Source: Lachnospiraceae bacterium
Lineage (GTDB): Bacteria; Bacillota; Clostridia; Lachnospirales; Lachnospiraceae
Reading direction: 5' to 3'
NCBI GenBank assembly: GCA_016287675.1
Contig: JAEFAR010000001.1
Span: 62,001-126,000 of the forward strand
DNA length: 64,000 bases
Both the position numbers and the translations under genes were made by a program. Below the pieces are notes generated by a model. The model was not told the DNA's origin. It did no database searches and was given only the letters and a program-made list of their open reading frames with translations. Positions 20,287 through 39,982 of this stretch are shown here, one piece after another; the first letter of the stretch is position 1; the number at the start of each line of letters is the position of its first letter.

Positions 20287-20316
20287 CCTGTAAGAAATAT
20301 GAAAGGAACTGATCTC

Positions 20317-20970: not shown

Positions 20971-21592
20971 TTACGAGGGACCGTTTTTTAAATTCTTGAA
21001 TACATTTGCAAACATAGTGATACTCAGTGTGATCACGGTTGTCTGCTGTCTGCCGGTGTTTACCTTCGGACCGGCGGTGAGAGCTTTGTATGTTGTCTGC
21101 CTCAAGATGGTGAGAAATGAGGAAGGATACGTCACAAAGGATTATTTCCGCAGTTTCAGATCCAACTTTGGTCAAAACGTTGTCCTTGGACTCCTGGTGC
21201 TTCTTGTTCTCGCTCTCTTCGGAGGGGGAGTGTATTCCTTTATAATGATCGGAAGTGCTTATCACATCATCATAAAGATTGGATTCGGGTTCGCCGCCCT
21301 TATCGTGATCTCCACGGTTCTTTGGATCTTTCCGATGCAGAGCCGTTTCACGAATCCCATCAGACAGACTGTGAAGTTGTCCTTTTGGCTCGCGGTCACG
21401 AAATTTCCAAAGACGCTTTTGATGCTGGTTATCTGGCTTTTTATCCCCGCCTGTGTTCTTTTTATCTCAGGGAACTTTTTCCCGCTGATCGTGCTTGCGG
21501 AGTTCGGTACAGCCGCCTACTTCAGTGCGGAAGTGTACGACGGATTGTTCAGAGAGCTTGAAGACAGGATTAACGAAAACAAAGAAAATTAA
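20951..21592 (+). CDS. YesL family (DUF624) membrane protein, second copy
   Basis: A 213-residue paralogue of the preceding protein, with the same FNYEGPF start, VCCLPVFTFGP membrane segment and KMVRNEEGYVTKDYFRSF loop, and again about five membrane segments. Its start at 20951 lies within the end of the first gene, preceded by GGAGGAGAG, so translation is coupled. The tandem overlapping arrangement suggests that the two products are made in equal amounts and might form a heteromer; this is inference. No transporter gene is adjacent here. Confidence 0.82.
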   Translation: MPGKIFNYEGPFFKFLNTFANIVILSVITVVCCLPVFTFGPAVRALYVVCLKMVRNEEGYVTKDYFRSFRSNFGQNVVLGLLVLLVLALFGGGVYSFIMIGSAYHIIIKIGFGFAALIVISTVLWIFPMQSRFTNPIRQTVKLSFWLAVTKFPKTLLMLVIWLFIPACVLFISGNFFPLIVLAEFGTAAYFSAEVYDGLFRELEDRINENKEN

Positions 21593-22925: not shown

Positions 22926-24059
22926 TTACAGATACTTCTCACTGTTGATCCTGTATCTTCGGCGGTATTCTTCGGGGGTTATCCCGTATTTACTTTTAAA
23001 TAAGTTTTGAAAATAAGACTGGCTCTTGATCCCCACAGCTTGTGAAATGGCGGAGACGGTCTTTTTTTCGTTGCCCTGAAGGAGGAGGAGGGCTGCTTCA
23101 AGCTTTTTTTCTTTAATGTAGTCGGTGAAATTAACCTCCATGTTTTTCTTGAAAAGCCGGCAGAGGTAGGCATCGGTAATTCCAAAGTGAGATGCTGTGC
23201 CGGAGAGCGAGACGGTGGAAAGGTTATCTTCTATGTATTTTAGAATCTCCTGCATATTTCTGTTCTCACGTTCTGACACGGGTACGGAACGGAAATTGGC
23301 GCAGTATTTAAGGAGGCAGTTGCAAATCTGTCTGATCACACCGGCACATCCGTTGCTTTTGTAAAGAGAGGTGAGAAGGTTCTCATCCATGAAAGGATAA
23401 TGATAATTCTGCTTTGCGAAAAAAAGCTTCATTACCACACAGACTTCCGAAATGTAGTTCATCATTTCTGAAAAAGAGTAAACCATTTCTTCTCCCGGCA
23501 TGTCTATAAATCTTCCTTCCGCTTCCCGGAAGAGTTCTATCACCTCATCATAATTCTTATCATCAAGTTTTTTCATTATAGTTGCGGCTATCCCTGCAGG
23601 AAGCATATGATCGCTGCATTCCATAGAGTGGAGCAGCCTTCCGGTCAAAGGCCTGTAGCTTCCCAGAAGCATTCCGTATCTCACCGAATCGGTAAGGAAA
23701 ATGAATTCGTCAATGAGCTGCTTTCTGTCCTGCAATCCTTCGGAGTAGCAGACTGTGGAATGCTTTGACTGGGAAAGAGAGTACATGGTCTGACGCAGTG
23801 AACCGACAAAGGACCGGATACTGAACACGGAAGCATTGTAATTAAGGAAACAGATTATGAGATTTCCGCTCCGTTCGCAATAATGTGCCACAAGGGATGC
23901 GGTCATCAGATTGATACTGGCATTCAGAACTTCTGCAAGATAATCATCTTGTGCAATTTCACCGTTTTCTTCTCTGATTTCTGTTACTATCACCGAATAA
24001 TCAGGCAGATTTTCCCCTGAAAACAACTCATTTAAGCTTTTCTTGGTAAATGTGTACAA
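22926..24059 (-). CDS. AraC-family transcriptional regulator
   Basis: A 377-residue protein with a C-terminal AraC double helix-turn-helix (about 270-370; motifs VSLSGTASHFGITDAYLCRLFKK and ISQAVGIKSQSYFQNLFK). The first 260 residues form an unrecognised sensory domain, probably helical. Translation starts at a TTG, seven bases after a perfect AGGAGG, so it is a true start despite the rare codon. It is divergent from the large transporter operon beginning at 24298. A direct repeat in the spacer is the likely binding site, which points to local activation of that operon. The effector is unknown. Confidence 0.85.
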   Translation of the reverse strand: MYTFTKKSLNELFSGENLPDYSVIVTEIREENGEIAQDDYLAEVLNASINLMTASLVAHYCERSGNLIICFLNYNASVFSIRSFVGSLRQTMYSLSQSKHSTVCYSEGLQDRKQLIDEFIFLTDSVRYGMLLGSYRPLTGRLLHSMECSDHMLPAGIAATIMKKLDDKNYDEVIELFREAEGRFIDMPGEEMVYSFSEMMNYISEVCVVMKLFFAKQNYHYPFMDENLLTSLYKSNGCAGVIRQICNCLLKYCANFRSVPVSERENRNMQEILKYIEDNLSTVSLSGTASHFGITDAYLCRLFKKNMEVNFTDYIKEKKLEAALLLLQGNEKKTVSAISQAVGIKSQSYFQNLFKSKYGITPEEYRRRYRINSEKYL

Positions 24060-24297: not shown

Positions 24298-27243
24298 ATG
24301 AAGAAGAACAGAGGCTGTTTTTCCGCAAAAGTCAAAAAAGCCATCGGGCTTACGCTTGTTACGGCGCTCGCTGTTACAGGCGTACCTTCATCTGTTTTAC
24401 CTGCTTTTGCTGCGGAAGGTCAGGCTTTGAAAGATAAATACACTGAATTTGACGGTCGTGACATTGACTGGAAGTATAACGTGGATGAAAACATACCCAC
24501 TTATTCCGAGACAACTGAGAGATTCGACCTTGTAGGCTTTCCTGATAAAGCGATCGATGTGGATCTGAAAAAGATCGACGATATTAACGGCAAAGTGACT
24601 GTTTCCGAATTTGACGGAAAAAAAGTCGTTTTGAACAGTCTTGACGGAGAATATATCGAATTTAAGATAAATGTTCCTGCCGATGCGGTTTACGGCTTTG
24701 AGATTGATTACCATATGGTCGGTTCCGATTCCGATTCCGCAAAAAGAAATCTTCTCATAGACAATGCTTATCCTTTTTCCGAAGCATCGGATCTGGTTTA
24801 CTACAGATACTTCTGCGACGAGGGCGAGCCTGTTCTGAACAGCATCGGAGATGAGACAAGACCCAAACAGAAGGAAGTTACAGGCTGGAGAACACAGGGG
24901 CTCAAGGATACAACAGGTATTGCTGATGAGGATTTTAAAGTGATCCTTACAAAGGGAACTCACACAGTACGTTTTGTAGTCTCCAGAGGCGACATGTACA
25001 TCTCCGGTATCCGCTTCACAGTTCCGAAAGTAATAAAGACCTATGCCGAGATGGAAGAAGAATACAAGGCAAAAGGTTATAAGAATGTTAATTGTGAAAA
25101 GATCACATTTCAGGCTGAGTCCACAGCAATAGAAAAGAATGCGACGACACTGAGACGTGAAAATGACGGTGATCCCCTGGTGGAACCCGAATCCGGAACT
25201 TCCAGAAGATTGAACGTTATCGGCGGATCAAGATGGAGATACGGAAACCAGAGTATCACCTGGGAATTTGAAGTTCCTGAAGACGGACTTTACAAGATCG
25301 GAATGTACGAAAAACAGACCTGGAACGACGGACTTCCTTCCTACAGACAGATCCTGATCGACGGAGAAGTTCCTTTTAAAGAACTCAGTGCATACAAGTT
25401 TGAATACACTTCCAAATGGATCGTAAATCAATTGGGACCTGAAAATGGTGAGCCTTACAGATTCTATCTTACAAAGGGCAGACACACCATAACCATGAGT
25501 GTTAAAATGGGAGCTTTCGGTCCCATCCTTGAATCCTTAAAAAACGATATATCGATCCTTTCGGACGTTATCCTGAATATTACCATGATCGCCGGCGCCA
25601 GCCCCGATCCCAACTATGATTACGGATTCTTTGAGAAGATCCCTGATCTTGAGGAAAAACTGAACTTCCTCATCGACAGTCTTCAGTATAAGTATGAACT
25701 TGCCAACAGTATGTCTGCGAAGACCTCTGCCATGGCCAACAACTTTATTGCTGTTCAGGAAGACATTAAGGCTATGGTAGAAGATCCTTTTATCATCGCC
25801 AAGAGGTTTTCTTCTCTTGAAGACAATCAGACAAAGCTTTCCGAGTACTATCAGTCGATCCAGTATCTGATGCTTGTTATCGATGAGTTTTATGTCGGAG
25901 ATCCCGGTGAAAAATGGAAGAGTGTTTCTTCCAATTTCTTCCAGCGCTTTGCTGTAACAGTCAAACAGTTTTTGCTGTCATTTACCAAGGACTATGATAA
26001 TGTGGGCAGCGTGCTTTCGGAAGAGACGGAAGTCAAAGAGACCATAAATGTGTGGATCGCAAGAAGCACCGAGTATGCTGAAGTAATTAAGCAATTGGCG
26101 GATGAAAGCTTCACTCCCGAAAAGGGAATAGCAATAAATGTTAATGTCCTTCCTTCGTCACAGTTGGATGCTGGTCAGGTGAATGCCATCATGCTTGCGA
26201 TCACATCCGGTAAAGCTCCTGACGTAGCTCTCGGTGTTGACATCAAGTCTCCCGTAGAATTTGCCATCCGAGATCAGGTTTACGATCTTTCGCAGATGGA
26301 AGGCTTTGACGATGTAAAGAAGAATTTTGTTGATGCGATCTTCACACCGTACAAGTACCGGGACGGTGTTTACGCTTTGCCCGAAACAATGAATTTCAAT
26401 GTTCTTTTCTACAGAAAGGACATACTCAATAAGATAGGTATCGATCTTCCGGACACCTGGGAAGACCTCTATGAATATGTGCTTCCGGCACTTTACCAGA
26501 ATGGTCTGGAGTTTTACTTCGGACGTGAGTTCAGTCAGTTCCTTTTCCAGAACGGAGGGGAGTACTACACTGAGGATGGACTCAGAACCGCTCTTGATAC
26601 GCCCGAAGCATACAGAGCATTTAAGGAGTATACGGAACTTTTCACAAACTACGGAGTTGACAAGACTGCCAATTTCTATCAGTACTTCAGGTCGGGACTT
26701 ATGCCTCTGGGTGTCGGAGACTTTAATGTGTTTATGCAGCTTTCGGCTGCTGCTCCCGAGCTTGCGGGTAAATGGGGCATAGTTTCTCTTCCCGGACATC
26801 GTAAAACTGACGGAACCATTGACAGAACTGCAGGCGCAATAACTCAGTCGGGTGATATCATTCTCAAGCAGTCGAAGAAACCCAATGAGAGCTGGGAGTT
26901 CCTTAAGTGGTGGACAAGCACAGAGACACAGACCCAGTTCGCAAAAGAAGTGGAATCTCTGATCGGTGCGGAGGCAAGATGGAACACCGCAAACAAGGAT
27001 GCTTTTCTTTCTCTTTCATGGAGCAGAGATGACATTGCGGCTCTTAATGAAGAATGGAGCTTTGCAAAAGAAACACCGTATGTTCTCGGAGGATATATGA
27101 CCGAGCGTCATCTTACCAACGCATGGACAAGCGTTGTAATGAGCGGAATGGATGTACGAGAAGCATTGGAAAGAGCCGTAAAAGAAATAAACAGAGAATT
27201 ACGTATGAAACAGGAAGAGTACGGGGTAAAGACCAATGAGTAA
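24298..27243 (+). CDS. Large multidomain solute-binding protein with two N-terminal carbohydrate-binding-like repeats
   Basis: A 981-residue exported protein. Its signal peptide ends in AFA-AEG near residue 39, so it lacks the lipobox of ordinary binding proteins. Two related beta-sandwich domains follow (about 100-245 and 270-410), sharing the series LLIDNAYPF / ILIDGEVPF and LTKGTHTVRF / LTKGRHTITM; they resemble CBM6/35-type modules. A helical segment (about 415-575) leads into a family 1 solute-binding domain (about 580-981). GGAGGA precedes the start at 24298. It is the first gene of the operon and overlaps the next by 8 bases. It presumably captures a complex polysaccharide fragment. 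How it is held at the surface is unclear. Confidence 0.82.
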   Translation: MKKNRGCFSAKVKKAIGLTLVTALAVTGVPSSVLPAFAAEGQALKDKYTEFDGRDIDWKYNVDENIPTYSETTERFDLVGFPDKAIDVDLKKIDDINGKVTVSEFDGKKVVLNSLDGEYIEFKINVPADAVYGFEIDYHMVGSDSDSAKRNLLIDNAYPFSEASDLVYYRYFCDEGEPVLNSIGDETRPKQKEVTGWRTQGLKDTTGIADEDFKVILTKGTHTVRFVVSRGDMYISGIRFTVPKVIKTYAEMEEEYKAKGYKNVNCEKITFQAESTAIEKNATTLRRENDGDPLVEPESGTSRRLNVIGGSRWRYGNQSITWEFEVPEDGLYKIGMYEKQTWNDGLPSYRQILIDGEVPFKELSAYKFEYTSKWIVNQLGPENGEPYRFYLTKGRHTITMSVKMGAFGPILESLKNDISILSDVILNITMIAGASPDPNYDYGFFEKIPDLEEKLNFLIDSLQYKYELANSMSAKTSAMANNFIAVQEDIKAMVEDPFIIAKRFSSLEDNQTKLSEYYQSIQYLMLVIDEFYVGDPGEKWKSVSSNFFQRFAVTVKQFLLSFTKDYDNVGSVLSEETEVKETINVWIARSTEYAEVIKQLADESFTPEKGIAINVNVLPSSQLDAGQVNAIMLAITSGKAPDVALGVDIKSPVEFAIRDQVYDLSQMEGFDDVKKNFVDAIFTPYKYRDGVYALPETMNFNVLFYRKDILNKIGIDLPDTWEDLYEYVLPALYQNGLEFYFGREFSQFLFQNGGEYYTEDGLRTALDTPEAYRAFKEYTELFTNYGVDKTANFYQYFRSGLMPLGVGDFNVFMQLSAAAPELAGKWGIVSLPGHRKTDGTIDRTAGAITQSGDIILKQSKKPNESWEFLKWWTSTETQTQFAKEVESLIGAEARWNTANKDAFLSLSWSRDDIAALNEEWSFAKETPYVLGGYMTERHLTNAWTSVVMSGMDVREALERAVKEINRELRMKQEEYGVKTNE

Positions 27244-28186
27244 GAAAAAAGTGGTTATAGCCGAAAACAGCATCTACAGGAACTATACGAAGTGGGATCG
27301 TTTCAAACGCTTTTGGCATAAGAACTGGATGGGTTATGTCTTTATGGCACCCTTTGTTGTACTTTTCTCCATTTTCGTTGTTGCTCCTGTTTTTACGGCT
27401 ATCGGTCTCAGCTTTACCGATTACAACATGATGCAGAAGCCTGACTTTGTCGGCTTTAACAATTACAAGCTTCTGTTCCTTGATGATGATGTGTTTAAGA
27501 TTTCAATTTCAAATACAGTGAAGTTCGCGATAATTACAGGCCCTGCGGGATATCTTCTTTCCTTTTTCGCTGCTTGGGTTATAAATCAGCTTAAAGCGAA
27601 GAGAGCGTTTGCGCTTGCTTTCTATGCACCTTCGATCCTTTCGGGTGTTGCGATGTCGAATGTGTGGCTGGTCATCTTCTCGGGTGATAAACGAGGCATT
27701 ATAAACTACTGGCTCATACAGTGGGGCATTATAGACGAGCCTATCCTCTGGAATACGGATCCCAATCACATCATGTTCGTTGTCATGTTTATTCAGTTGT
27801 GGATGAGCATGGGTACAGGCTTCCTTGTATTCCTGGCGGGACTTCAGAACATGGATCGTTCCCTTTATGAGGCCGGTGCTTTGGACGGTGTTAAGAACAA
27901 ATTTCAGGAACTGTTTTACATTACACTTCCCGCAATGAAGCCTCAGCTTCTCTTCGGTGCGATCAATACGATTACCGGATCGTTTGCGGTTTTCGATATT
28001 GCGGTAAACGTTGCAGGTATGCCGAGCCCGAACTATTCGGCACATACTATTGTTGCCCATCTTTATGATTACGCATTTATTCGCTTCCAGATGGGTTACG
28101 CTTCGGCGGTTGCGGTTGTTCTCTTCCTTATCACTTTTATTCTCGGTAAGGTTGTAATGAAGGCACTTTCGTCCAAGGGAGAGTAA
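27236..28186 (+). CDS. Sugar ABC transporter permease (MalF type), first set
   Basis: A 316-residue membrane protein with about six transmembrane segments after a 30-residue cytoplasmic N-terminus. The EAA-loop region is SLYEAGALDGVKNKFQELFY, where the family's EAAKIDGA is altered to EAGALDGV. It overlaps the binding-protein gene by 8 bases, indicating coupled translation, and is followed by its partner permease after 45 bases. It should pair with that permease and the 981-residue binding protein. Confidence 0.9.
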   Translation: MSKKKVVIAENSIYRNYTKWDRFKRFWHKNWMGYVFMAPFVVLFSIFVVAPVFTAIGLSFTDYNMMQKPDFVGFNNYKLLFLDDDVFKISISNTVKFAIITGPAGYLLSFFAAWVINQLKAKRAFALAFYAPSILSGVAMSNVWLVIFSGDKRGIINYWLIQWGIIDEPILWNTDPNHIMFVVMFIQLWMSMGTGFLVFLAGLQNMDRSLYEAGALDGVKNKFQELFYITLPAMKPQLLFGAINTITGSFAVFDIAVNVAGMPSPNYSAHTIVAHLYDYAFIRFQMGYASAVAVVLFLITFILGKVVMKALSSKGE

Positions 28187-28231
28187 ATCGTTTTAAAGTG
28201 ACAAAACCGATATGACAGAGAGGAACATGTA

Positions 28232-29098
28232 ATGATTAAAATAAAATGGTTTAAGGGACAATGGTTGCATATAACCTTCAGTAAGACACTGCTGTATCTC
28301 GTGATGCTGGCACTTGTCGCTTTTACTGCACTGCCGCTGGTCTACGTTGTTGTTACCGCTTTTAAACCTTTGGATGAACTGTTTGTTTATCCTCCAAGGT
28401 TTTATGTGAAGCATCCCACAACACAGAATTTTTCGGATCTGGTGGTTTCCCTCGGAAGCTCCACAGTCCCTTTTACAAGATATATCTTCAACAGTATACT
28501 CGTTACAATCGCGACGGTTGTACTCACAGTCATTGTTTGCTCGCTGGCGGCATATGCGCTTGTTAAGTTCAAACCCAAGGGCGGAAAGCTGCTGTTCGAC
28601 CTGATCCTTATAGCTCTCATGTTTTCGCCGCATGTTACGAAGATACCGAGCTATTTGATCATTAACAAACTGAATCTTGTAAATACGTATGGCGCGTTGG
28701 TTCTGCCCAGTATTGCTGTGGCTTACAACTGCTTTCTTATGAGGCAGTTCATCCAGCAGTACCCCGATGAACTTATTGAAGCTGCAAGGATCGACGGAGC
28801 GGGAGAGTTCAGGATCTTTATACAGATGGTAATGCCTGCGCTTGCACCTGCCTGGTCCACACTCGTTGTTTTCTCCTTTGTAAGCAGCTGGAATGACTAC
28901 TTCTCACCTCTTATTTACATAACCAGCCAGGCAATGAAAACCCTTCCCCTCGCCTTAAAGACGATCGGGTCGGGTATTGCCCGTGCGGGAGCGATGAATG
29001 CAGCTTCGCTGCTTACTGCTGCACCTACGATCATTATCTTCACGATCATGCAGGGACATGTAATGGAAACAATGACCTATTCAGGTATTAAAGGTTGA
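28232..29098 (+). CDS. Carbohydrate ABC transporter permease (MalG type), first set
   Basis: A 288-residue membrane protein with about six transmembrane segments and a canonical EAA loop, EAARIDGAGEFRIFIQMVMP. It completes the first permease pair of this operon. Its end lies 17 bases before the chosen start of the NHL/Yip1 gene (the open frame of that gene overlaps by 4 bases). No ATPase gene accompanies it. Confidence 0.9.
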   Translation: MIKIKWFKGQWLHITFSKTLLYLVMLALVAFTALPLVYVVVTAFKPLDELFVYPPRFYVKHPTTQNFSDLVVSLGSSTVPFTRYIFNSILVTIATVVLTVIVCSLAAYALVKFKPKGGKLLFDLILIALMFSPHVTKIPSYLIINKLNLVNTYGALVLPSIAVAYNCFLMRQFIQQYPDELIEAARIDGAGEFRIFIQMVMPALAPAWSTLVVFSFVSSWNDYFSPLIYITSQAMKTLPLALKTIGSGIARAGAMNAASLLTAAPTIIIFTIMQGHVMETMTYSGIKG

Positions 29099-29115
29099 TT
29101 GGCTTGGAGGAAAGT

Positions 29116-31305
29116 ATGAGATCGATAAAAAAAATAGGTATTTGCCTGCTGGCTGCGGTAATAAGCTTTTCTTCATTCTCGGCAAGGGTAGCCTATGCAT
29201 CCGAAAACAGCGCCGACAATTACGTTACAAGAGACGGGAACGGAAGGCAACCCGTACCGGATTGCTATGTGGTTTCCAAGACAATCTACAATCTCGGGAA
29301 TTTTGAGGATCCAAATCCGGATGCCAAGAAAAAGACTTCAGTTTTTAAGGGCCCCAGAGATCTTTTTATAGACGATAATGACAATGTTTTTATTGCAGAC
29401 ACCGGCAATAACAGAATTGTAATGCTTAATTCCGACCTTGAGACGGTCAATGTTTTTTACGGACCGGAAGGCGCAGGTGCCTTCAAGACACCGCAGGGGA
29501 TCTTCGTGGATAACGACGGAGATATGTACGTCGCGGATACTGAAAACCACAGGATCGTTCACATGGGCTCCGAGGGTGAACTTGTCGAGATCTTTTCAAA
29601 TCCCGAAAGTGATCTTGCAACAGGTGAGGTTTTTTCACCTTCCAAATTGATCGTAAACGATACCGGGTACATTTATGTGGTGCGCGGTGAAAACATAATG
29701 GCGATCGACGGAAACGGTACATTCAGAGGTTATTACGGACAGACAAATATCGGTTTCAATCTTTCGGATGTTCTTATCAGAATGTTTGCATCCGATCAGC
29801 AGAAACTGTTTGCAACAAAAAGACTTGCTTCTTCCTACATCAATGTTGCCTATGGCAGCGATGGAAAGATCTATGCCACAAGCCTTGAAAGAGAAGAGGG
29901 CGAGATCAAAAAACTCAACTCTGTCGGTACAAACACCTATCGTAAGTACAAAACAGTCGGAAACAGCTTCCAGAACCCCATTAAAAAATGGTGGAACAAG
30001 GCCATGAAGTCTGTCGTTGCAGGTCAGTCTTTTAAATTCGGTGAGTACTTTGACGACGATTTCAACTACATTGAGCCTATCTTCACTGACATCTGCGTTG
30101 ACAACAACGGGATCGTCACAGTCATAGAACAGCTGAACGGCAAGGTTTATCAATATGACCAGGACGGAAGAATGCTTGTTGCATTTGGCGGACTCGGCGA
30201 GAAAAAAGGGACTTTTTCAAGAAGCAGTTCCATCGAAGTTGACAGCAAGGGCAGGATCTATGTCCTCGATCAGATAAACAACAACATACAGATCTTTGAA
30301 CCCACGGAATTTATCCAAAACATCCATGATGCAACATCTACTTACAATAACGGTAACTATCAGGAATCCTATGAGCTTTGGAAAAAAGTTCTGGCTACAG
30401 ACGAAAACTATGACCTTGCACACATCGGTATAGCGAGAGCTCTTTACAAACAGGGAAAGTATAAGGAAGCCATGAAAGAAGCCAAGATCGTAGGAGACAG
30501 AGACACCTACACAATGGCTTTCGATGAATACAAGTACGAAGTGCTCCGTGCACATTTCCTTCCCATAGTGCTCTTGGCACTTGCCATAGTGATCGCAGTC
30601 ATTTTCCTTATCAAAATGTTTGCGAAAAAGGCAAATAAAGGTTATTGGAAGTTTTTAACCGAAAAGAACAAGAAGATGTCCGTAGGATCAGGCATCATGT
30701 ATGCTTTCAATGTGATACTTCACCCCGTTGATGCTTACGCGGGAATTAAATACAACAGAGACAGGATCAATCCCCTGGTGCCTGTTATAATCCTTGGACT
30801 TGCCTATGTTGTCAGAGTGGCGTACCTCTATGTGGTTCATTTCCCTCTGGCATCCATTGAAACAAAGAACATCAATCTCTGGCTTGAGCTTGTCAAACTC
30901 TGGATCGTTCCGGTGTCCTGGATACCGGCGTCCTTTATGGCAACCAGTATTTCGGGCGGCGAAAGCAAGATGAAGGAGATCGCATTTGCCTCTGTTTCAT
31001 CACTTACACCTTACATCGTGATCACGACTCCTCTCATGTTCCTCTCGAACATTATGTCGAAGAGCCAGCAATCCTGGTACGGTGTGTTTGAAGTTCTTGC
31101 ATATGTCGGAATGTTCCTTCTTTTGTTCGCTGCAATGATGACTCTGAACAATTACTCTTTCGGAAAGACCGTGGGTATGATGTTCATGTCGGCATTCCTT
31201 ATGGCAGTAATGTGGCTGGTAATTCTTTTATGTTATGTATTGACCGGCAGAATGATACAATTTGTAATTTCACTCATTGAAGAGTTCAGACTGAATTTCC
31301 TGTAA
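29116..31305 (+). CDS. NHL-repeat / TPR / Yip1-domain membrane protein
   Basis: A 729-residue protein in four parts: a signal peptide (to about residue 29, ending AYASE), an extracellular NHL-type beta-propeller (about 75-400, motifs such as DLFIDDNDNVFIADTGNNRI and GIFVDNDGDMYVADTENHRI), one TPR pair (about 405-460) and a membrane part. The membrane part has one segment at 481-502 and then a Yip1-like domain with four or five segments (about 525-715). The start at 29116 follows TTGGAGGAAAG. It is encoded between two ABC permease sets. NHL propellers bind carbohydrate or protein ligands, and bacterial Yip1 proteins have no settled function. A role as a membrane receptor or coupling factor for the transporters is inference. 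Confidence 0.75.
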   Translation: MRSIKKIGICLLAAVISFSSFSARVAYASENSADNYVTRDGNGRQPVPDCYVVSKTIYNLGNFEDPNPDAKKKTSVFKGPRDLFIDDNDNVFIADTGNNRIVMLNSDLETVNVFYGPEGAGAFKTPQGIFVDNDGDMYVADTENHRIVHMGSEGELVEIFSNPESDLATGEVFSPSKLIVNDTGYIYVVRGENIMAIDGNGTFRGYYGQTNIGFNLSDVLIRMFASDQQKLFATKRLASSYINVAYGSDGKIYATSLEREEGEIKKLNSVGTNTYRKYKTVGNSFQNPIKKWWNKAMKSVVAGQSFKFGEYFDDDFNYIEPIFTDICVDNNGIVTVIEQLNGKVYQYDQDGRMLVAFGGLGEKKGTFSRSSSIEVDSKGRIYVLDQINNNIQIFEPTEFIQNIHDATSTYNNGNYQESYELWKKVLATDENYDLAHIGIARALYKQGKYKEAMKEAKIVGDRDTYTMAFDEYKYEVLRAHFLPIVLLALAIVIAVIFLIKMFAKKANKGYWKFLTEKNKKMSVGSGIMYAFNVILHPVDAYAGIKYNRDRINPLVPVIILGLAYVVRVAYLYVVHFPLASIETKNINLWLELVKLWIVPVSWIPASFMATSISGGESKMKEIAFASVSSLTPYIVITTPLMFLSNIMSKSQQSWYGVFEVLAYVGMFLLLFAAMMTLNNYSFGKTVGMMFMSAFLMAVMWLVILLCYVLTGRMIQFVISLIEEFRLNFL

Positions 31306-31333
31306 TGACCGGTATTGAAAGGAGAAAAGCTTT

Positions 31334-33742
31334 ATGTCAAAGCGATTTTTTAAGAATATGGGAGAGAGCATAAGCGCTTTCTTCAAAGGCCTGCCGGGAA
31401 AAACAGCCAGATGGTGGCAATTTGAAAAGATACAGCTGGGAAGAAAGATTAAAAACTTTCCGGGTGAGTTTAAGACATGGGCTAAGAGCAAGATCGGAAC
31501 AGCGATAGTCTTTGCTCTTGTGATCATAATGGTAATTGTCGGATCGTTAAGCATTAAGAAGGCTAAAGAGAATGCCATTACTTACACGGATGACTATGAA
31601 GCTCCGGAAAAGACCGCAGATCTTCTTTCGGAAGGTGAGTACCAAAGCGTTGCTAAAAATGACAGGTTTGAGCTGTTCTTCTGCCCCGAAAAAGGGACTG
31701 TGAGTGTTCTGAACCGTGAAAGTGGTAAGCTTTGGGAGTCGGTCCCGAACAAAGAAGTTTGTGAAGCCAACGGGATGACAATGAAGAAGGTGGCGGAAAA
31801 GAGAACACAGTCTGCGCTTGTCATTTCCTATTGCGATCTGAAAAAGAAAAATGCTGAGCAGGTGACTTTATACAGCGCCGTGGATTGCGGATTTCTTGAA
31901 TACAGCCCGATAGATAACGGTGTTTCGGTCACCTACGGGTTCCTTAAGCCGGGCATATATGTAACCGTTGAGTACACTCTGCAGGACGATGGCCTTGTGA
32001 CGAGGATACCTTGGGAAAGCATCAGAGAGGATTGGAAGTACGCATTAAAGAATCTTGAGATCCTTCCCTATTTCGGAGCATGCGGAAACACTGAAGGCGG
32101 TTACATGTTCTATCCTGACGGAAGCGGTGCTGTCACCGCATTTGACAAGGTGGGAGAGAGAAGCACAAATGTTAAGGCTGCGGTATATTACACCTACACC
32201 AACAGGAAGGTTACTTTCGAGAATCTTTACGAAGACAACATGATGCGCTATACTGCTGCGCTTCCCGTATACGGGCTCAAGGACGGTAACGATGCGCTGT
32301 TCGCTTATGCGATCGAGGGCGAAGAGTACGCGGGAGTAAAAGTATCCCCGTACGGATGCCTGAACCTTAGTCTCAATCGTATCGGATTTGATTTCGCCAT
32401 AAGAAATGTATTTGACGCGAGTCTTTACAATATGACATCCGGAGAGAACACGAAGGCTACCGGAGGTTCCATACAAAGAGTTGACAAGGAAAAGATCCAT
32501 AAGGACAAGGTTGTGATCTACACATTTTTAAGCGGTGATGATGCGGATTATTCAGGCATGGCTAAGATCTACAGAAGCTATCTTGAGAAAAACGGACTCA
32601 TCGCGGACAGGATCGATGATGACAATTATTCACTTGCCTTAAAGATGCTTATGGGGACCACTAAGAGCGGTGTGATCTTTGATGAATACATTGCAATGAC
32701 AACCTTCGGTCAGGTAAGGGACATCCTTGAAGAACTTGCTGAACTTGGCATTACAAATGAGAAATTGGTCCTTTCAGACTGGGTTAAAAACAGCGGTGAT
32801 TACAACTATTGGGGACCGGAGTTCAGACTCGGCGGAAAGAGCGGATTGAACAGCCTCAGTAAATACGCTGCAGAAAGACCGGGCTTGGATGTTTTTCTTG
32901 AAACTTCCTTTGCACAGTGTAATTCGTCCACAAAGGGTATAAATGAGGATGAAGACGTTGTTTATGACGGATTGGGCATAGAGATCGCCGAGCTTTACAT
33001 GGATGGCTCCATCAGTTACCTTACCAATCCGCTTACGATATTCAAGAGAAACGGAAAATTCCTGAATAAGCTTAAGAAGTACGACGGTGTGGGCATTGCT
33101 TATGAAGATCTCGGAAGAATTGCTTACTACGATTACAATGATCTGCATCCTTTTACCAAGGATGAGACCGTTCAGGAGTTCAGAAAGGTATTTGCGGAGA
33201 CGGAAGATGCCGGAAAGGGCATATCTGTCAACGGAGCCAACCAGTATTCCTATTCCTTTGCGGATTACATTTACAATCTGACTGAGGAGAATTACGGACT
33301 TTCTATAACGGATTATTCCGTACCATTTGTACAGATGGTGATTTCCGGCTATATTCCCTATTCCACATCGGGAGCCGGAAACCTGTCTTACGATCTTGAA
33401 ACTCAGAAATTAAAGTGGATCGAGTACGGTTCGCTTCCTTACTTCTATGTGACCTATGAGTCGGCGCTGAATCTTCGCGAGACTCCGAACGACACACTTT
33501 TCAGTTCCACATGGTCCGACTGGAAGCCGATCATCACTGACACTTACAATGAGTTTAAGGAAAATTTCTCATGCATATACGGAAAACAGATGACCGAGCA
33601 CAGGATACTGAGTGACAAGGTGTCAAGGATCACTTACGAGAACGGTGTCAGCATATATGTAAACTATGATGAGAATGAAACTATGGCGGATGGGATTAAG
33701 ATCCCCGGAAAAGGTTACGTGGTTACCGGAGGCATCAAATGA
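31334..33742 (+). CDS. DUF5696 membrane-anchored protein
   Basis: An 802-residue protein with a basic cytoplasmic N-terminus, a single membrane segment (about 54-73) and a large extracellular part of about 725 residues. I assign it to DUF5696 from its overall pattern (YYTYTNRKVTFENLYEDNMM, a central region with barrel-like alternation such as LSDWVKNSGDYNYWGPEF, and a conserved tail). The central part may be a glycosidase-like barrel, but no catalytic residues can be named. It follows the NHL/Yip1 gene by 28 bases and overlaps the next permease gene by 4 bases, so it belongs to the transport unit. It could bind or trim the polysaccharide at the cell surface. Confidence 0.7.
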   Translation: MSKRFFKNMGESISAFFKGLPGKTARWWQFEKIQLGRKIKNFPGEFKTWAKSKIGTAIVFALVIIMVIVGSLSIKKAKENAITYTDDYEAPEKTADLLSEGEYQSVAKNDRFELFFCPEKGTVSVLNRESGKLWESVPNKEVCEANGMTMKKVAEKRTQSALVISYCDLKKKNAEQVTLYSAVDCGFLEYSPIDNGVSVTYGFLKPGIYVTVEYTLQDDGLVTRIPWESIREDWKYALKNLEILPYFGACGNTEGGYMFYPDGSGAVTAFDKVGERSTNVKAAVYYTYTNRKVTFENLYEDNMMRYTAALPVYGLKDGNDALFAYAIEGEEYAGVKVSPYGCLNLSLNRIGFDFAIRNVFDASLYNMTSGENTKATGGSIQRVDKEKIHKDKVVIYTFLSGDDADYSGMAKIYRSYLEKNGLIADRIDDDNYSLALKMLMGTTKSGVIFDEYIAMTTFGQVRDILEELAELGITNEKLVLSDWVKNSGDYNYWGPEFRLGGKSGLNSLSKYAAERPGLDVFLETSFAQCNSSTKGINEDEDVVYDGLGIEIAELYMDGSISYLTNPLTIFKRNGKFLNKLKKYDGVGIAYEDLGRIAYYDYNDLHPFTKDETVQEFRKVFAETEDAGKGISVNGANQYSYSFADYIYNLTEENYGLSITDYSVPFVQMVISGYIPYSTSGAGNLSYDLETQKLKWIEYGSLPYFYVTYESALNLRETPNDTLFSSTWSDWKPIITDTYNEFKENFSCIYGKQMTEHRILSDKVSRITYENGVSIYVNYDENETMADGIKIPGKGYVVTGGIK

Positions 33743-34695
33743 TGAAAAAAACTAAAAAATTTAAAATGACGCTGGAAAGACGGAATCAGCTTAAAGGCCT
33801 GGTTTTTGTACTTCCTTTTATCATCGGAGTGCTGGCGTTCTTCCTTTATCCCATCCTGTTCTCTTTGAGGATCAGTATTGCTTCACAGATAAAGGTTGTC
33901 GGAATGAAGCTTTCGGGCTGGTCGTTTGAACAGTACAAACGTGCTTTCATCGTTGACACGAGCTTTCTTCCCGAGTTTAAGGATACAGTGATCTTTACAC
34001 TTACAAGGTTTCCGCTGACGATAATCCTCTCATTGATCATTGCGATCCTCTTAAATAAAGACATTAAGGGAAGAGGACTTTTCAGAGTCATTTTCTTCAT
34101 CCCTTTCCTTCTCGGAAGCGGAGAAGTAATGCAGCAGATCGTCAATCAGGGCGTTGCTAAAGCGGTGCTGAATGTTCAGGACGGAAGGATCATTCCGTAC
34201 AATGTCCTTATGTATTTCGGAAATTCGGTCATGAACACTGTTCAGAGTGTGTTCGGATCGCTGGTCACCATCCTGTGGGGAAGCGGAGTTCAGATACTTC
34301 TTTTCCTTGCCGGACTTCAGAGCATTTCGCCTTCACTCTACGAAGCAGCAAAGATCGACGGAGCAACGGAATGGGAGATCTTCTGGAAGGTAACGATTCC
34401 CATGATATCGCCCATGATGCTCCTGAACATCGTTTACACTCTTGTGGATTCGTTTACGAGTGTGGATAACAAGCTTCTGGAGTATATAAGAGGGTACGGA
34501 TTCTCAAACATGGAATTTTCCTATGCCGCGGCTATGAGCTGGATCTATTTCCTGTTTATTGCTCTTGTGGTAGCTGTGGTATTCGGAATAATGAAAAAGT
34601 ATATGCATACAAATGAGATCGAGGAGGTAAGAAAGCGTGAGCACAAGCACAGAGTCTTTACAATCGAAAAAGCACGCAGAAGGACTTTTGAATAA
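33739..34695 (+). CDS. Sugar ABC transporter permease (LplB type), second set
   Basis: A 318-residue membrane protein with about six transmembrane segments and the EAA loop SLYEAAKIDGATEWEIFWKV. It starts within the stop of the DUF5696 gene (ATGA overlap) and its 3' end overlaps the next permease gene by 59 bases. It forms the first half of the second permease pair in this operon, presumably working with the lipoprotein at 35762. Confidence 0.9.
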   Translation: MMKKTKKFKMTLERRNQLKGLVFVLPFIIGVLAFFLYPILFSLRISIASQIKVVGMKLSGWSFEQYKRAFIVDTSFLPEFKDTVIFTLTRFPLTIILSLIIAILLNKDIKGRGLFRVIFFIPFLLGSGEVMQQIVNQGVAKAVLNVQDGRIIPYNVLMYFGNSVMNTVQSVFGSLVTILWGSGVQILLFLAGLQSISPSLYEAAKIDGATEWEIFWKVTIPMISPMMLLNIVYTLVDSFTSVDNKLLEYIRGYGFSNMEFSYAAAMSWIYFLFIALVVAVVFGIMKKYMHTNEIEEVRKREHKHRVFTIEKARRRTFE

Positions 34696-35665
34696 TCTTG
34701 CCTTAAGATGGCACCTTTTTAAAAGAAAGTATTCTACCTACTCGGGTATCAAGCAGTTGCTGATAAGGATCGTGATGTATCTTCTGATCATCGGTCTGGC
34801 ATTTGTATTCATTTATCCCTTCCTGTACATGATCGTGAATTCAGTCATGTCGAATGCTGATCTTAACAGCAGATCCGTCAACTGGTTACCTACGGAGTTT
34901 AAATTTGAAAACTACTCTCTGGCTCTTGATCTGTTGAACGGAAAGAAGTTCGCAATTAATTCCGCAAAGGTTACGATCATTGCCACCATCGGACATGTTA
35001 TCGCCTGCTCCTTCATCGGTTACGGCTTTGCAAGATACAATTTCCCGGGAAAGAAGATACTTTTCGCCCTTGTTATCCTTGCATTCATCGTGCCTACACA
35101 GACATTGATAATACCGTCCTACCTTACCTATTCCAATATCTCATTCAAGGGACAGAATTGCCTGGATACATACATTCCTTTGCTCGTTCCGACTTTCTTC
35201 GGATTCGGACTGAGAGGTGCTCTCTACATCTTCCTTTTCAGACAGTTTTACCTGACTGTTCCGAAAAGCTTGGAAGAGGCAGCAAGGATCGACGGATGCG
35301 GTTTCATGAAGACCTACTGGAAGATCGTTTTCCCTCTTGCAAAGGCCACTCTGGTCGTAGCAGTCGTTCTTTCAATAGTTTGGCATTGGAACGATTCATA
35401 TGAGCCGAGTATTTACATAAACTCTACCGCAAAATCATTCCTGCCCCCGAGGCTTAAGGAGATCATCGCCGTAGCCAATGCTCTTCCCGATGCACAGGAG
35501 GAACGAATGAGGCAGCTCGGTCTTGAAGGCGGTGAGGATACTTTGAACGATGCCGTTGTTATGGCGGGAGCCACTGTCATCAGTGCTCCGATACTTCTCT
35601 TCTTTGCATTTGCTCAAAGTCAGTTCATGCAGGGAATCGAGAGAAGCGGTATCACCGGAGAATAA
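34637..35665 (+). CDS. Carbohydrate ABC transporter permease (LplC type), second set
   Basis: A 342-residue membrane protein with about six transmembrane segments and the EAA loop SLEEAARIDGCGFMKTYWKI. It starts with GTG at 34637, preceded by GAGGAGG, deep inside the preceding gene (59-base overlap). Compared with other LplC proteins it has an insertion between the last two membrane segments (about 275-310, DAQEERMRQLGLEGGEDT). It is followed by a hairpin and the binding-protein gene. Confidence 0.88.
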   Translation: MSTSTESLQSKKHAEGLLNNLALRWHLFKRKYSTYSGIKQLLIRIVMYLLIIGLAFVFIYPFLYMIVNSVMSNADLNSRSVNWLPTEFKFENYSLALDLLNGKKFAINSAKVTIIATIGHVIACSFIGYGFARYNFPGKKILFALVILAFIVPTQTLIIPSYLTYSNISFKGQNCLDTYIPLLVPTFFGFGLRGALYIFLFRQFYLTVPKSLEEAARIDGCGFMKTYWKIVFPLAKATLVVAVVLSIVWHWNDSYEPSIYINSTAKSFLPPRLKEIIAVANALPDAQEERMRQLGLEGGEDTLNDAVVMAGATVISAPILLFFAFAQSQFMQGIERSGITGE

Positions 35666-35688
35666 CCGAAAAATGCGGGATTTTTCGG
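35666..35688 (+). promoter_or_regulatory. Intercistronic hairpin before the binding-protein gene
   Basis: CCGAAAAA (35666-35673) pairs with TTTTTCGG (35681-35688) around a 7-base loop, directly after the permease stop codon. No T-run follows. Such a structure may stabilise the downstream mRNA or reduce read-through, so that the lipoprotein is made in a different amount from the permeases. Confidence 0.5.
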
Positions 35689-35761
35689 AAAAACAACCTG
35701 ATAGTAGCGCGAGTGCGTTATTATATATAATTCATTAATTATGAATGGAGGAAAAAGAATT

Positions 35762-37411
35762 ATGAAGAAACTCAACAAAGTTCTTGCATTCGCTCTTGCA
35801 GCATCTCTCGTTGTAGGCCTTGCTGCTTGCGGCGACAAGAAACCTGCTGAAGAAAAGCAGACTGCACAGAACACACCTGCTGCTTCCGGAACAAAGACGG
35901 AAACAAAGGCAACTGCAACACCCACACCCACACTTGCTCCCCTTAAGATCAGCGTATTGCTTCCTTCCGATGATGAGCATACGGAAGAGAACAAGTTCTA
36001 CGATCAGATGGTAGCTGAGATCAACAAGTACACCAACATGGATATCACATGGAAGTGGGCTGATACAACAACCTACTATACAGATGAAAACCTTGGCTTA
36101 AAGCTTACAACCGGTGACGTTGAAGACGTTCTGGTAGTTGGTAACAACGCTACATTCTATCAGGCTGCGGAAGAAGGTCTCTTCTGGGATCTTGCTCCCT
36201 ACCTTGATGATTACGACAACCTTGCAACGATCCCCGAGGCATATCGTGCAGCTGCTTCCAAGAACGGAAAGCTCTACGGACTTCCTCGCGGACGTGAGAT
36301 CGGACGTAACGGTATGGGATATCGTCTTGACTGGCTTGAGAACCTCGGACTTGATGAGCCCACTAACTGGGAAGCTTATCATGAGATGCTCTATCAGTTC
36401 ACATACGGCGATCCCGACGGAAACGGACTTGATGATACAGTAGGTCTCGGACTTGACTCCTGGGGCGGTGTATTTGACATCATGTTCCCTTGGTTCGGAG
36501 TTCCCAACATCTGGGGCATCGATGCAAAGGGTGATCTGATCAACAGATACATGACCGAAGAATACAAGGATGCACTTAAGAAGATCAGACAGCTCTATGA
36601 AGAAGGTCTTATTAACAACGGTTCAAACGGTATCGCTGATTTCAGAGATCTTGGCGCAGGTGCGGCACAGAAGTCTCTTCTCAGAACACAGCTCGCAGGT
36701 TCCGGCGTACAGGTTGTTGACGATCAGAGAAAGGTTCAGGAGTACTTCCAGAACGAAGGTCTTACAACAGAAGATGAGATCATGTACACAGTCCGCGGTT
36801 ACGTAGATTGCGGTTTCGGACCTCGTGTTCAGCCTTTCATCGGTATCTCTAACATGATCGCTGTTTCCAAGGTAAACATTAAGACAGAAGCTCAGCTTCG
36901 TCAGGTACTTCAGTTCCTTAACGATATCAATGACGGTGAAATGCTTCTTCTCATCGACAGCGGTCTCCGCGGTGTTACATGGGATCTTAACGAAGAAGGT
37001 TATGTAACATATTACACAGGCGATGAAGCAACAGAAAAGCTTGAAGGCCTTTCCGGAAAGTACAGGAACGGTTTCAACCAGGTACCTGTTTACTTCACAG
37101 CTGAAGCTAACGAAAGACCTTATGTAGTTGCTCCCGCAACATCAGCTATCAAGGTTCTTGAAGCAGAAGTATATGCTGACAACAGACTGCACCTTGTTCC
37201 CAACTATGGTCTTTCCTATGAGTCTTCAACACCTTCTGCTTCAAATGCAGAAACATTCAATGCACTCAACAAGATTATGACAGATGCTCAGCTTGCTTAC
37301 ATCGTAGGCGAGATCGATGACACAGGTCTTGAGGCTGCAATCAACCAGTGGTCCAAGGCAGGCGGAGCTCAGCTCACCAAGGAGATCAACGAACTCTATC
37401 ACGCAAAATAG
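35762..37411 (+). CDS. Solute-binding lipoprotein, second set
   Basis: A 549-residue family 1 binding protein. It has a signal peptide with lipobox GLAAC (about residues 18-22), a Thr/Pro/Lys linker of about 35 residues, and the two-lobe domain. It contains a calcium-loop-like DPDGNGLDDT (about residue 219) also present in the orphan binding protein at 42466. The start at 35762 follows ATGGAGGAAAAAG. Codon use is heavily biased towards GCT, CTT and AAG-type codons, suggesting high expression. It is the last gene of the dual-transporter operon and is closed by a strong terminator. The ligand is unknown; the RG lyase gene just downstream suggests RG-I oligosaccharides. Confidence 0.87.
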   Translation: MKKLNKVLAFALAASLVVGLAACGDKKPAEEKQTAQNTPAASGTKTETKATATPTPTLAPLKISVLLPSDDEHTEENKFYDQMVAEINKYTNMDITWKWADTTTYYTDENLGLKLTTGDVEDVLVVGNNATFYQAAEEGLFWDLAPYLDDYDNLATIPEAYRAAASKNGKLYGLPRGREIGRNGMGYRLDWLENLGLDEPTNWEAYHEMLYQFTYGDPDGNGLDDTVGLGLDSWGGVFDIMFPWFGVPNIWGIDAKGDLINRYMTEEYKDALKKIRQLYEEGLINNGSNGIADFRDLGAGAAQKSLLRTQLAGSGVQVVDDQRKVQEYFQNEGLTTEDEIMYTVRGYVDCGFGPRVQPFIGISNMIAVSKVNIKTEAQLRQVLQFLNDINDGEMLLLIDSGLRGVTWDLNEEGYVTYYTGDEATEKLEGLSGKYRNGFNQVPVYFTAEANERPYVVAPATSAIKVLEAEVYADNRLHLVPNYGLSYESSTPSASNAETFNALNKIMTDAQLAYIVGEIDDTGLEAAINQWSKAGGAQLTKEINELYHAK

Positions 37412-37459: not shown

Positions 37460-37502
37460 ACATACCCGCGGACTTTTACAGTCCGCGGGTATGTATTTTT
37501 AA
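37460..37502 (+). terminator. Rho-independent terminator of the dual-transporter operon
   Basis: A 13-bp GC-rich stem, CATACCCGCGGAC (37461-37473) with its complement (37481-37493), a 7-base loop, and a T-run at 37496-37500. Confidence 0.93.
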
Positions 37503-37561: not shown

Positions 37562-39982
37562 ATGAAAATTACAGTTAAAAACATAACAAAAGATCAAATT
37601 TGCATGGAATGGGACAAGATAACAGGTGCGGATGAATATGCCCTGTTTTATTCCGATCATGACTCGAAAACAGTAGTTTACTCTGAAAAATACAGAGGAA
37701 AAGACAATTCATTTACCATTAAAAGATCTACACATGTGCCTCACTGGTTTTACGCAGAGGCCTATTCAAACGGAAAATTACTTGAAAGAAGCGAAAAGCT
37801 TTGCACAAGTGTAACATATAAAAAACAGGAACAGAGAGAAAAGCTGAACAGAGGTCTTATCGCAGTAAAGACCGATGAAGGAGTTTTTCTTGGCTGGAGA
37901 CTTTTCATGGATGAGGTTTCCGGAAGCAACGAAACGGGACTTACGGGTACCGACTTTAATGTGTACAGAAACGGCGAAAAGATCGCGTTTGTAACAGACA
38001 GTACCAACTATCTTGATATAAAAGGAAAGAGCGAAGACGAGTACAGCGTGGCTGCGGTCAGGGACGGCAAAGAAACTGCTGCCTGTGCTGCGGTCAAGGC
38101 TTGGAAGAACGATAAGAATTACATCGAGATCCCCATGCAGATCCCCGAAGGCGGTGTTACCCCTGCGGGACAGGAGTACACCTACTCCGTAAACGACATG
38201 AGCATAGGAGATGTGGACGGAGACGGAGAACTTGAGTACTTTGTCAAATGGGATCCTTCAAACTCCCACGATGTTTCTCACAGGGGCTACACCGGAAACT
38301 GCTACATCGATTGCTACAAGCTTTCCGGACGTCTTCTCTGGAGACTGGACATGGGAAAGAACATCCGTGCGGGAGCACATTATACTCAGTTTATCGTCTA
38401 CGATTTTGACGGAGACGGCAAGGCGGAGATGTCCGTAAAGACAGCTCCCGGAACAAAGATGACTGTTTTCGGCGAAAACGGAGAGACGATCAGCGAAAAA
38501 TACATCACCATCCCCGAGAAGGACAGGGCAAACGGTGTTACCGACGATGACAATTACGTTTGCTCCGCTGCGGATTTCTACGATTACACCGTAAACCGTT
38601 TCAGAAGCTGGCACAAGCATCCGGAGGTTGTGAACGGACATTGGCCCAAGACACTTGAGGAATGTTTCGGAATCGAGAAAAAGTACGATTATCCTCTTTC
38701 TCTTGAAGATGCCTGTGAACTTACGGACTACTTCATGGATGTTTTTGCTCCCTCAAGGAGCGACAAGAACAAGCTCAGAGAATTTGAGGGCTTTATCTAC
38801 GAAGGCCCCGAGTATCTGACAATGTTCGAGGGAATGGGAAAAGAGATCGAGACGATTGATTTCCCCGTGCCCAGAGATGATGACGGAATGCTCTGGGGAG
38901 ACTATGCATGGAAGAGGATCGAGCCCTGCAACAGAGTCGACCGCTTCAATTCTGCCGTAGGCTATCTTGACGGAAAACATCCTTACCTCATCATCTGCAG
39001 AGGCTACTATACAAGAGCGACCATCACGGCTTACGATTTTTCGAAACGCAAACATGAAGAATATTTTAAGATCGATTCGGGTTACGTCCTTATGGACAAC
39101 CCCTTCATGCATCACTGTGCGGTGGACGGAACGGATCCCGTTTACGGATGCATCGCGGGACAGGGCGATCACAGCCTGTCCGTGGCGGATGTTGACGGAG
39201 ACGGCTGTCATGAGATCATCTACGGTGCCTGCACTATAGATCATGACGGAACTGTCCTCTATTCATCGGCAGATAAGATGGAAGACGGCCGCGTGGTAAA
39301 GCTGGGACACGGAGATGCCATGCATGTGGCAAAGATCGATCCGGATGCACCGGGCTTCAGGATCTTTAACGTTTTTGAAGGCGGTACGTCTGTACCCTGG
39401 GGCTTTGCATACAGAGATGCGGAAACCGGAAAAGTCATCTTCGGCGAAAGAGGAGACAGAGATCTGGGTCGTTGCATGATCGGAGACATTTGTCCCGGCG
39501 TTCGCGGACTTCAGATGTGGGTTTACGATGTGCGTGACGTTAAAGGAAACATTCTTCCCGTAAAGCCGTTGGGAACCAATTTCAACATCAAGTGGGCTGC
39601 GGATCTCACGACTCAGGTGACTGACGGTGTTGATTACGTGGGCGGACATCACATCGGAGTCATCGGAGATCATACCCACGGGGTGATGCTGGCTCCGGAA
39701 AACACTTCCACGAACAACGGGACCAAGGGTAATCCCTGTCTGGTGGCCGACATTTTCGGAGATTTCCGGGAGGAGCTGGTTCTCAGAACCGAGGACAGCA
39801 GCGCAGTAAGGATCTACACCAATACAGACATTACGAAGCACAAGCTCTTTACTCTTTTACATGACACCATGTACAGATGCGGAGTGGCTTGGCAGAACAA
39901 TGTTTACAACCAGCCCTGCTACACATCCTTCTATTATGCGGATGACATGGACTTTGAAGAAGTATTGAGATCAATCTCATAA
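37562..39982 (+). CDS. Rhamnogalacturonan lyase (PL11, YesW/YesX type)
   Basis: An 806-residue protein with a fibronectin-like N-terminus (about 1-90) and a PL11 beta-propeller. Calcium-binding motifs characteristic of the family are visible: DVDGDGELEYFVKW (from residue 217), DFDGDGKAEMSVKTAPG and DVDGDGCHEIIYGA. PL11 enzymes cut the RG-I backbone between rhamnose and galacturonate by beta-elimination. There is no signal peptide, which places it in the cytoplasm and argues for an enzyme acting on imported fragments, like the exo-type YesX. It lies after the terminator of the transporter operon, with only a weak TATACC box upstream, so its promoter is uncertain. The ribosome site is AAGGA. 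Confidence 0.92.
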   Translation: MKITVKNITKDQICMEWDKITGADEYALFYSDHDSKTVVYSEKYRGKDNSFTIKRSTHVPHWFYAEAYSNGKLLERSEKLCTSVTYKKQEQREKLNRGLIAVKTDEGVFLGWRLFMDEVSGSNETGLTGTDFNVYRNGEKIAFVTDSTNYLDIKGKSEDEYSVAAVRDGKETAACAAVKAWKNDKNYIEIPMQIPEGGVTPAGQEYTYSVNDMSIGDVDGDGELEYFVKWDPSNSHDVSHRGYTGNCYIDCYKLSGRLLWRLDMGKNIRAGAHYTQFIVYDFDGDGKAEMSVKTAPGTKMTVFGENGETISEKYITIPEKDRANGVTDDDNYVCSAADFYDYTVNRFRSWHKHPEVVNGHWPKTLEECFGIEKKYDYPLSLEDACELTDYFMDVFAPSRSDKNKLREFEGFIYEGPEYLTMFEGMGKEIETIDFPVPRDDDGMLWGDYAWKRIEPCNRVDRFNSAVGYLDGKHPYLIICRGYYTRATITAYDFSKRKHEEYFKIDSGYVLMDNPFMHHCAVDGTDPVYGCIAGQGDHSLSVADVDGDGCHEIIYGACTIDHDGTVLYSSADKMEDGRVVKLGHGDAMHVAKIDPDAPGFRIFNVFEGGTSVPWGFAYRDAETGKVIFGERGDRDLGRCMIGDICPGVRGLQMWVYDVRDVKGNILPVKPLGTNFNIKWAADLTTQVTDGVDYVGGHHIGVIGDHTHGVMLAPENTSTNNGTKGNPCLVADIFGDFREELVLRTEDSSAVRIYTNTDITKHKLFTLLHDTMYRCGVAWQNNVYNQPCYTSFYYADDMDFEEVLRSIS

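Follow-up and report, generated by a model that had tools for sequence, protein, structure and literature searches.

What brings an exported NHL-propeller protein with a Yip1-like membrane domain and a membrane-anchored DUF5696 protein into one operon with two sugar importers of the ABC type, and what might these proteins do there? The question is raised by a locus in a 64,000-nucleotide stretch of a Lachnospiraceae genome (hereafter the window). An earlier note, made from the sequence letters, had described an operon of eight genes comprising two sets of a binding protein and a permease pair, with the two other membrane proteins between them, and had envisaged a specialised machine for the capture and import of large polysaccharide fragments. 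The gene complement was confirmed at window 24298-37411, with all eight genes on the plus strand of one operon, in the order SBP_A, permA1, permA2, NHL-TPR-Yip1, DUF5696, permB1, permB2 and SBP_B (Table 1). Pfam agrees with the domain calls that had been read from motifs (SBP_bac_1 twice, BPD_transp_1 four times, NHL, TPR_19 and DUF5696). The overlaps of 4-59 bases claimed for the genes exist at three of the seven junctions (8, 4 and 59 bp), whereas at the other four the genes are separated by 45, 17, 28 and 75 bp or more.

Table 1. Features of the operon and its immediate flanks in the window
Feature	Coordinates	Strand	Evidence
AraC-family regulator, divergent	22926-24059	-	HTH_18 63 bits
SBP_A, exported, 981 aa	24298-27243	+	SBP_bac_1 87 bits; CUT1 solute-binding domain, residues ~594-878
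permA1, CUT1 permease, UgpA/MalF-like	27236-28186	+	BPD_transp_1 43 bits; UgpA model 89 bits; EAA loop EAGALDG
permA2, CUT1 permease, UgpE/MalG-like	28232-29098	+	BPD_transp_1 59 bits; UgpE model 131 bits; EAA loop EAARIDG
NHL-TPR-TM-Yip1 fusion, 729 aa	29116-31305	+	NHL 51.5 bits (cut-off 20); TPR_19 27 bits (cut-off 25)
DUF5696 protein, 802 aa; N-terminal TM anchor, GH129-like β-sandwich/barrel ectodomain	31334-33742	+	PF18952 474 bits
permB1, CUT1 permease	33739-34695	+	BPD_transp_1 31 bits; EAA loop EAAKIDG; beside DUF5696 in 52/53 loci
permB2, CUT1 permease	34637-35665	+	BPD_transp_1 53 bits; GGAGG before GTG start 34637; overlaps permB1 by 59 bp
SBP_B, lipoprotein solute-binding protein, AlgQ-like	35759-37411	+	SBP_bac_1 42 bits; lipobox LAAC
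Intrinsic terminator, operon end	37460-37494	+	15-pair stem, T-tail; works in both directions
Rhamnogalacturonan lyase PL11	37562-39982	+	RGL11_C 531 bits; RGI_lyase 94 bits

The two importers and candidate shared ATPases

A ribosome-binding site (GGAGG) precedes the ATG of the first gene at 24298, and the NHL-Yip1 gene most likely starts at ATG 29116, likewise preceded by GGAGG, so that it does not overlap its neighbour. The divergent AraC-type gene upstream is a candidate local regulator of the operon; upstream of it lie two overlapping DUF624 (YesL-like) membrane proteins (window 20299-21592). BPD_transp_1 pairs together with a CUT1-type binding protein (Pfam, NCBIfam), and EAA loops in all four permeases, identify CUT1 importers, which are predicted from these features to carry out CUT1-type sugar uptake. 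A recent tandem duplication as the origin of the A and B importers was ruled out, as their permeases are only ~22-28% alike. The N-terminal half of SBP_A holds a region resembling sugar-binding modules: its profile matches the sugar-binding region of 5x7g at residues 310-409, the C-terminus matches 5ysb, and a paralog (L010) matches CBM_35. SBP_B recovers 3omb, AlgQ2 and AlgQ1 in PDB profile searches (E 3e-13 to 2e-10); the AlgQ1/AlgQ2 matches (E ~2e-11 to 2e-10) cover part of the N-terminal half and do not imply alginate binding. AlgQ-type binding proteins bind oligo- or polysaccharide chains. The permB1 of locus L085 (L085:12321-14189) bears a 300-residue N-terminal extension, which is charged and coiled-coil-like.

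No MalK-type ATPase gene is present in the operon or in any comparable module of the genome. Three ATPase genes exceed the OB_MalK cut-off and one falls below it, all on contig C79 and outside the modules, a placement consistent with shared ATPases for the module importers. The system resembles the lone CUT1 importers with a shared MsmX/MsiK-type ATPase (UgpABE, MalEFG and the YtcQ-YteP-YtcP type) in its binding protein, its EAA-loop permease pair and an ATPase encoded elsewhere, but differs from them in that a single operon joins two distinct importers to two additional conserved membrane proteins. SBP_B also recalls the Sphingomonas alginate importer (AlgQ1/AlgQ2-AlgM1-AlgM2-AlgS); unlike that system, the window operon includes no dedicated ATPase, and we know of no counterpart of DUF5696 or NHL-Yip1 in the alginate importer.

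Conservation of the module within and between genomes

The genome (2.66 Mb in 90 contigs) encodes six DUF5696 proteins, and all six copies of the module share the order SBP_A, permA1, permA2, NHL-TPR, Yip1, DUF5696, permB1, permB2, with an SBP-type gene following in most; four of these copies encode NHL-TPR and Yip1 in distinct genes. The window DUF5696 shows 22-25% identity to the other five, and the six modules together carry 24 of the 63 BPD-type permeases of the genome (38%). In the copy on contig C69 the contig edge cuts off SBP_A, which is present on the overlapping contig C1 (97.6% over 1357 bp). These overlapping ends (L099:1-1357 on C1 and L008:1-1357 on C69) indicate either that the assembly breaks within the second module or that strain variants were assembled separately. 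The window DUF5696 is 100% identical to a protein of the Lachnospiraceae MAG RUI274, and a single-protein scan returned only two near relatives.

The earlier note had named rarity of NHL-Yip1 and DUF5696 genes beside importers in other genomes as the outcome that would tell against its idea; we found the opposite, their co-occurrence being essentially complete. Among 199 phylum genomes sampled in a single draw, DUF5696 exceeded its cut-off in 16, and full-length NHL-Yip1 (>180 bits) occurred in the identical 16, all other matches to the NHL-Yip1 profile being partial propellers of 88 bits or less. SBP_A (>600 bits) was found in the same 16 and in three more, there on small contigs that end nearby. 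At the level of loci, chosen mostly by a DUF5696 match with a limited number scored per genome, an NHL partner on the same strand accompanied DUF5696 in 51/51 with enough flank, Yip1 in 51/51 (that of L008 was found by hand), permB1 and permB2 each in 52/53, and SBP_A in 33/46; the converse, NHL without DUF5696, was assessed per genome only. Among Lachnospiraceae, 43 of 150 genomes exceed the DUF5696 cut-off, a minority of these having soluble GH129-like barrels instead. Weak DUF5696 matches in further genomes were rejected as module members, being GH13 or GH129-type barrels, and an apparent DUF5696 fusion of 2554 aa in L073 is spurious, caused by a run of N. The module order is preserved on complete plasmids of Butyrivibrio fibrisolvens (D1) and Paenibacillus cellulosilyticus, where the genes bear separate automatic names. 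Contamination of metagenome-assembled genomes was ruled out, as the order recurs on complete named plasmids and in single-contig genomes. No relatives of the module were found in viral contigs.

The two halves of the module are separable. Blocks of SBP_A, permA1 and permA2 stand without NHL or DUF5696 in five loci (L072, L076, L077, L078 and L082), from which it follows that NHL-Yip1, DUF5696 and permB1-permB2 form the minimal unit, to which the A importer is often added. The genomes concerned also hold DUF5696 modules lacking SBP_A, and a partnership in trans is possible. Given these stand-alone blocks and the many modules without SBP_A, the notion of two importers acting as one machine is not universal; the near-complete co-occurrence sustains the idea of a specialised machine in part, and the absence or isolation of SBP_A blocks weakens it. 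The same observations, with the many DUF5696 units that lack SBP_A-permA, could be taken to mean that two independent importers and two unrelated membrane proteins share an operon for one growth condition and form no complex. We regard this as very unlikely, because the order NHL, Yip1, DUF5696, permB1, permB2 is kept in essentially every locus at ~25% identity, and because 44 of 59 loci encode NHL and Yip1 as one fused protein (the other 15 as separate adjacent genes). Gene order that survives such divergence is usually a sign that the products interact.

For 30 complete modules, all eight proteins gave congruent trees (Spearman 0.71-0.89 on patristic distances, against a permuted maximum of 0.37 obtained from five protein pairs). 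DUF5696 is closest to permB1 (0.89) and permB2 (0.88), and permA1 pairs best with permA2; the fastest-diverging protein is DUF5696, the slowest permA1. This pattern of divergence fits a B half that would bear specificity and an A half that would be more general. The correlated distances can also be explained by plain co-inheritance of a linked operon.

A GH129-like barrel and a propeller on a membrane anchor

Neither Pfam nor NCBIfam gives a function for DUF5696. The 725 residues that the earlier note had assigned to its ectodomain correspond to the length of the exported part, whereas the profile itself spans ~610 (residues 189-795). Searched against solved structures, a profile of 47 DUF5696 sequences matches DagB (5opq, E 4.9e-12) and the GH129 enzyme NagBb (5wzq, E 9.1e-9), the E values of such matches running from 4.9e-12 to 1.2e-8. 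A search of 119 genomes of the phylum found no GH129, and the references were therefore drawn from Paenibacillaceae; against these, hhalign gave a probability of 98 (E 1.4e-13, 417 columns). The alignment with GH129 (NagBb, 5wzn) and the GH129-like DagB covers the β-sandwich, the barrel and the C-terminal domain, which is the GH129 architecture, and on these profile comparisons DUF5696 proves to be a distant relative of the GH129 glycosidases.

The window protein does not have the GH129 catalytic pair. D435 and E478, which we take to be the catalytic residues of NagBb, correspond, in a mapping through NagBb and in a joint alignment, to D592 (the nucleophile position) and N633 (the acid/base position); D600, considered as the nucleophile position before this mapping, was replaced by D592. 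The D+E pair is kept in 12/12 GH129 proteins and in two of two soluble intermediates (L090, L091), but in only 2/58 module copies. Counted alone, the nucleophile D is present in 31/58 copies, including that of the window, the other 27 having S, T, Y, A, H, F, Q or C. Other positions are near-invariant in DUF5696, namely E697 (46/47), D600 (43/47), D262 (43/47), N683 and W483, the last aligning with the Trp of the NagBb DGW motif. DUF5696 further differs from GH129 and DagB in being membrane-tethered, with an N-terminal TM or signal segment in 59/60 copies, and in being tied to importer operons. As judged from the alignments, the family looks like GH129-type enzymes that became tethered to the membrane, with the catalytic pair mostly gone and the barrel conserved, and its ectodomain is predicted to be catalysis-deficient in most copies. 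An AlphaFold2 model of DUF5696 built from two input sequences (window and L013) had a mean pLDDT of 30, too low for use.

The soluble relatives L090 (L090:7676-9358, 560 aa) and L091 (L091:7227-8981, 584 aa), the former standing immediately before two permeases and an AlgQ-like SBP, are possible active ancestors of the module DUF5696. In seven Lachnospiraceae loci (L092-L098) we observed NagBb-type GH129 proteins without a signal peptide, mostly adjoining plain CUT1 importers; these exceed the Pfam DUF5696 cut-off, which thus picks up GH129 as well.

It is possible, if rather doubtful, that DUF5696 is instead a membrane-bound exo-glycosidase that remains active with a modified active site and trims fragments at the membrane to fit the neighbouring importers. 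D435 is named as one of the two catalytic residues of NagBb, and the GH129-like DagB is active though only D435 is conserved in it and its acid/base differs from that of GH129 [PMC5698469]; such folds tolerate a changed acid/base, so that its loss is no proof of lost catalysis in DUF5696. The D at the nucleophile position in over half of the copies and the other near-invariant acids are in keeping with such an enzyme. Against it, the nucleophile D has been replaced in 27/58 copies, and the pair kept in 2/58 is kept in 14/14 soluble relatives. With the catalytic pair lost in most copies, DUF5696 most likely binds glycan.

The partner protein consists of a signal peptide, an exported NHL propeller, a TPR (~400-460), a TM segment (~480-500) and a C-terminal multi-TM domain that is probably Yip1-like. 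The Yip1 call of the earlier note has no direct Pfam match in the window C-terminus; it is supported by similarity (25.6% identity, 77 bits) to L009, the product of a stand-alone Yip1 gene in a paralogous module, and L009 in turn matches PF04893 at 51 bits. The AlphaFold2 model from the same two inputs reached a mean pLDDT of 47, values of 70-80 being confined to the propeller and the TPR, and no conclusion here is based on it. As far as we know, Yip1 domains do not themselves perform any transport chemistry, which, together with the AraC, LacI or two-component genes that adjoin the modules, might suggest that NHL-Yip1 and DUF5696 form a glycan-sensing pair, gating the importers or signalling to a regulator and not delivering cargo. 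We consider this unlikely, since the type of regulator varies between modules while the permeases are constant, and since DUF5696 co-diverges most with permB1 and permB2.

A proposed receptor and scaffold for glycan import

We propose that the module is a conserved Gram-positive set for glycan capture and import, in which a tethered glycan receptor and a membrane scaffold would serve two CUT1 importers, and we judge the chances of this reading being right to be about even. DUF5696, as an extracytoplasmic tethered barrel of apparent GH129 descent, would most likely bind a specific glycan end or branch, and NHL-TPR-Yip1, whose multi-TM anchor carries the propeller and TPR on the outer side of the membrane, would most likely be a scaffold holding the receptor near the permeases. 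Glycans caught by DUF5696, by SBP_B and by the sugar-binding region of SBP_A would then be handed to the B and A importers, powered by general MalK/MsmX-type ATPases encoded elsewhere. These roles, the physical contact and the hand-over are what we infer from the same order in six divergent copies, the matching sets of 16 genomes, the locus counts, the order on plasmids and the co-divergence, and from a GH129-like DUF5696 without the catalytic pair, the TM anchors, the AlgQ-like SBP_B and ATPases outside the modules. The earlier note's picture of surface receptors joined to importers is favoured by the membrane-anchored, mostly catalysis-deficient barrel and by the AlgQ-like SBP_B.

The likely cargo of the window copy would be rhamnogalacturonan-I (RG-I) fragments. 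Besides PL11, its neighbours in the window include PcRGLX, a GDSL esterase, GH115, GH88 and a protein of the lacto-N-biose-phosphorylase family, which point to RG-I and related acidic chains. The rest of this large pectin/RG-I locus (window 42466-62617) comprises another SBP, a GH2-like protein, a PcRGLX lyase-like protein, GH88, the lacto-N-biose-phosphorylase-family enzyme, and a lone permease pair followed by a 560-aa protein. RG-I, which the earlier note had put forward as a substrate, is indicated by the PL11, PcRGLX, GH88 and lacto-N-biose-phosphorylase-family neighbours for this copy only, whereas others adjoin other enzymes (GH130, GH43, GH31 and GH35), and the copies thus probably differ in the glycan to which they are tuned. 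In Paenibacillus cellulosilyticus (L089:3552-25175) the module stands after a ugpC ATPase and before several LLM flavin-dependent oxidoreductases and additional SBPs. These surroundings suggest a sulfonated or otherwise non-polysaccharide substrate, and the cargo need not always be a polysaccharide.

With the SusC/SusD systems of Bacteroidota, in which a surface glycan receptor is coupled to uptake, the likeness is one of functional analogy only: the module has ABC importers, and the Pfam hits of the operon include no TonB porin or SusD-type match. A bolder version of the receptor-scaffold proposal, which we advance as a tentative possibility, is that NHL-Yip1 and DUF5696, a retired glycosidase, form an obligatory complex that physically links one or two ABC importers. 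Such a complex would be a Gram-positive analogue of SusCD assembled from unrelated parts, and it would have been duplicated within one genome and adjusted to different glycans. Gram-positive polysaccharide utilisation loci likewise unite enzymes, a regulator and an ABC importer, but the eight-gene core with NHL-Yip1 and DUF5696 was not found named in the literature. A search that covered few subscription journals found no mention of DUF5696 or PF18952 and nothing relevant on NHL or Yip1 with sugar importers. ABC glycan import is of a known kind; its obligatory partners appear to be undescribed as a unit.

For gut and rumen Firmicutes, the usual description of glycan uptake comprises a binding protein and its permeases. 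The importer of this module has an unvarying set of partners in families as distant as Lachnospiraceae and Paenibacillaceae, with six or more copies in some genomes. If these partners are receptors and scaffolds, models of how these bacteria capture plant cell-wall fragments need an extra layer. The proposal also offers a testable role for DUF5696, for bacterial Yip1 proteins and for an apparently retired glycosidase family.
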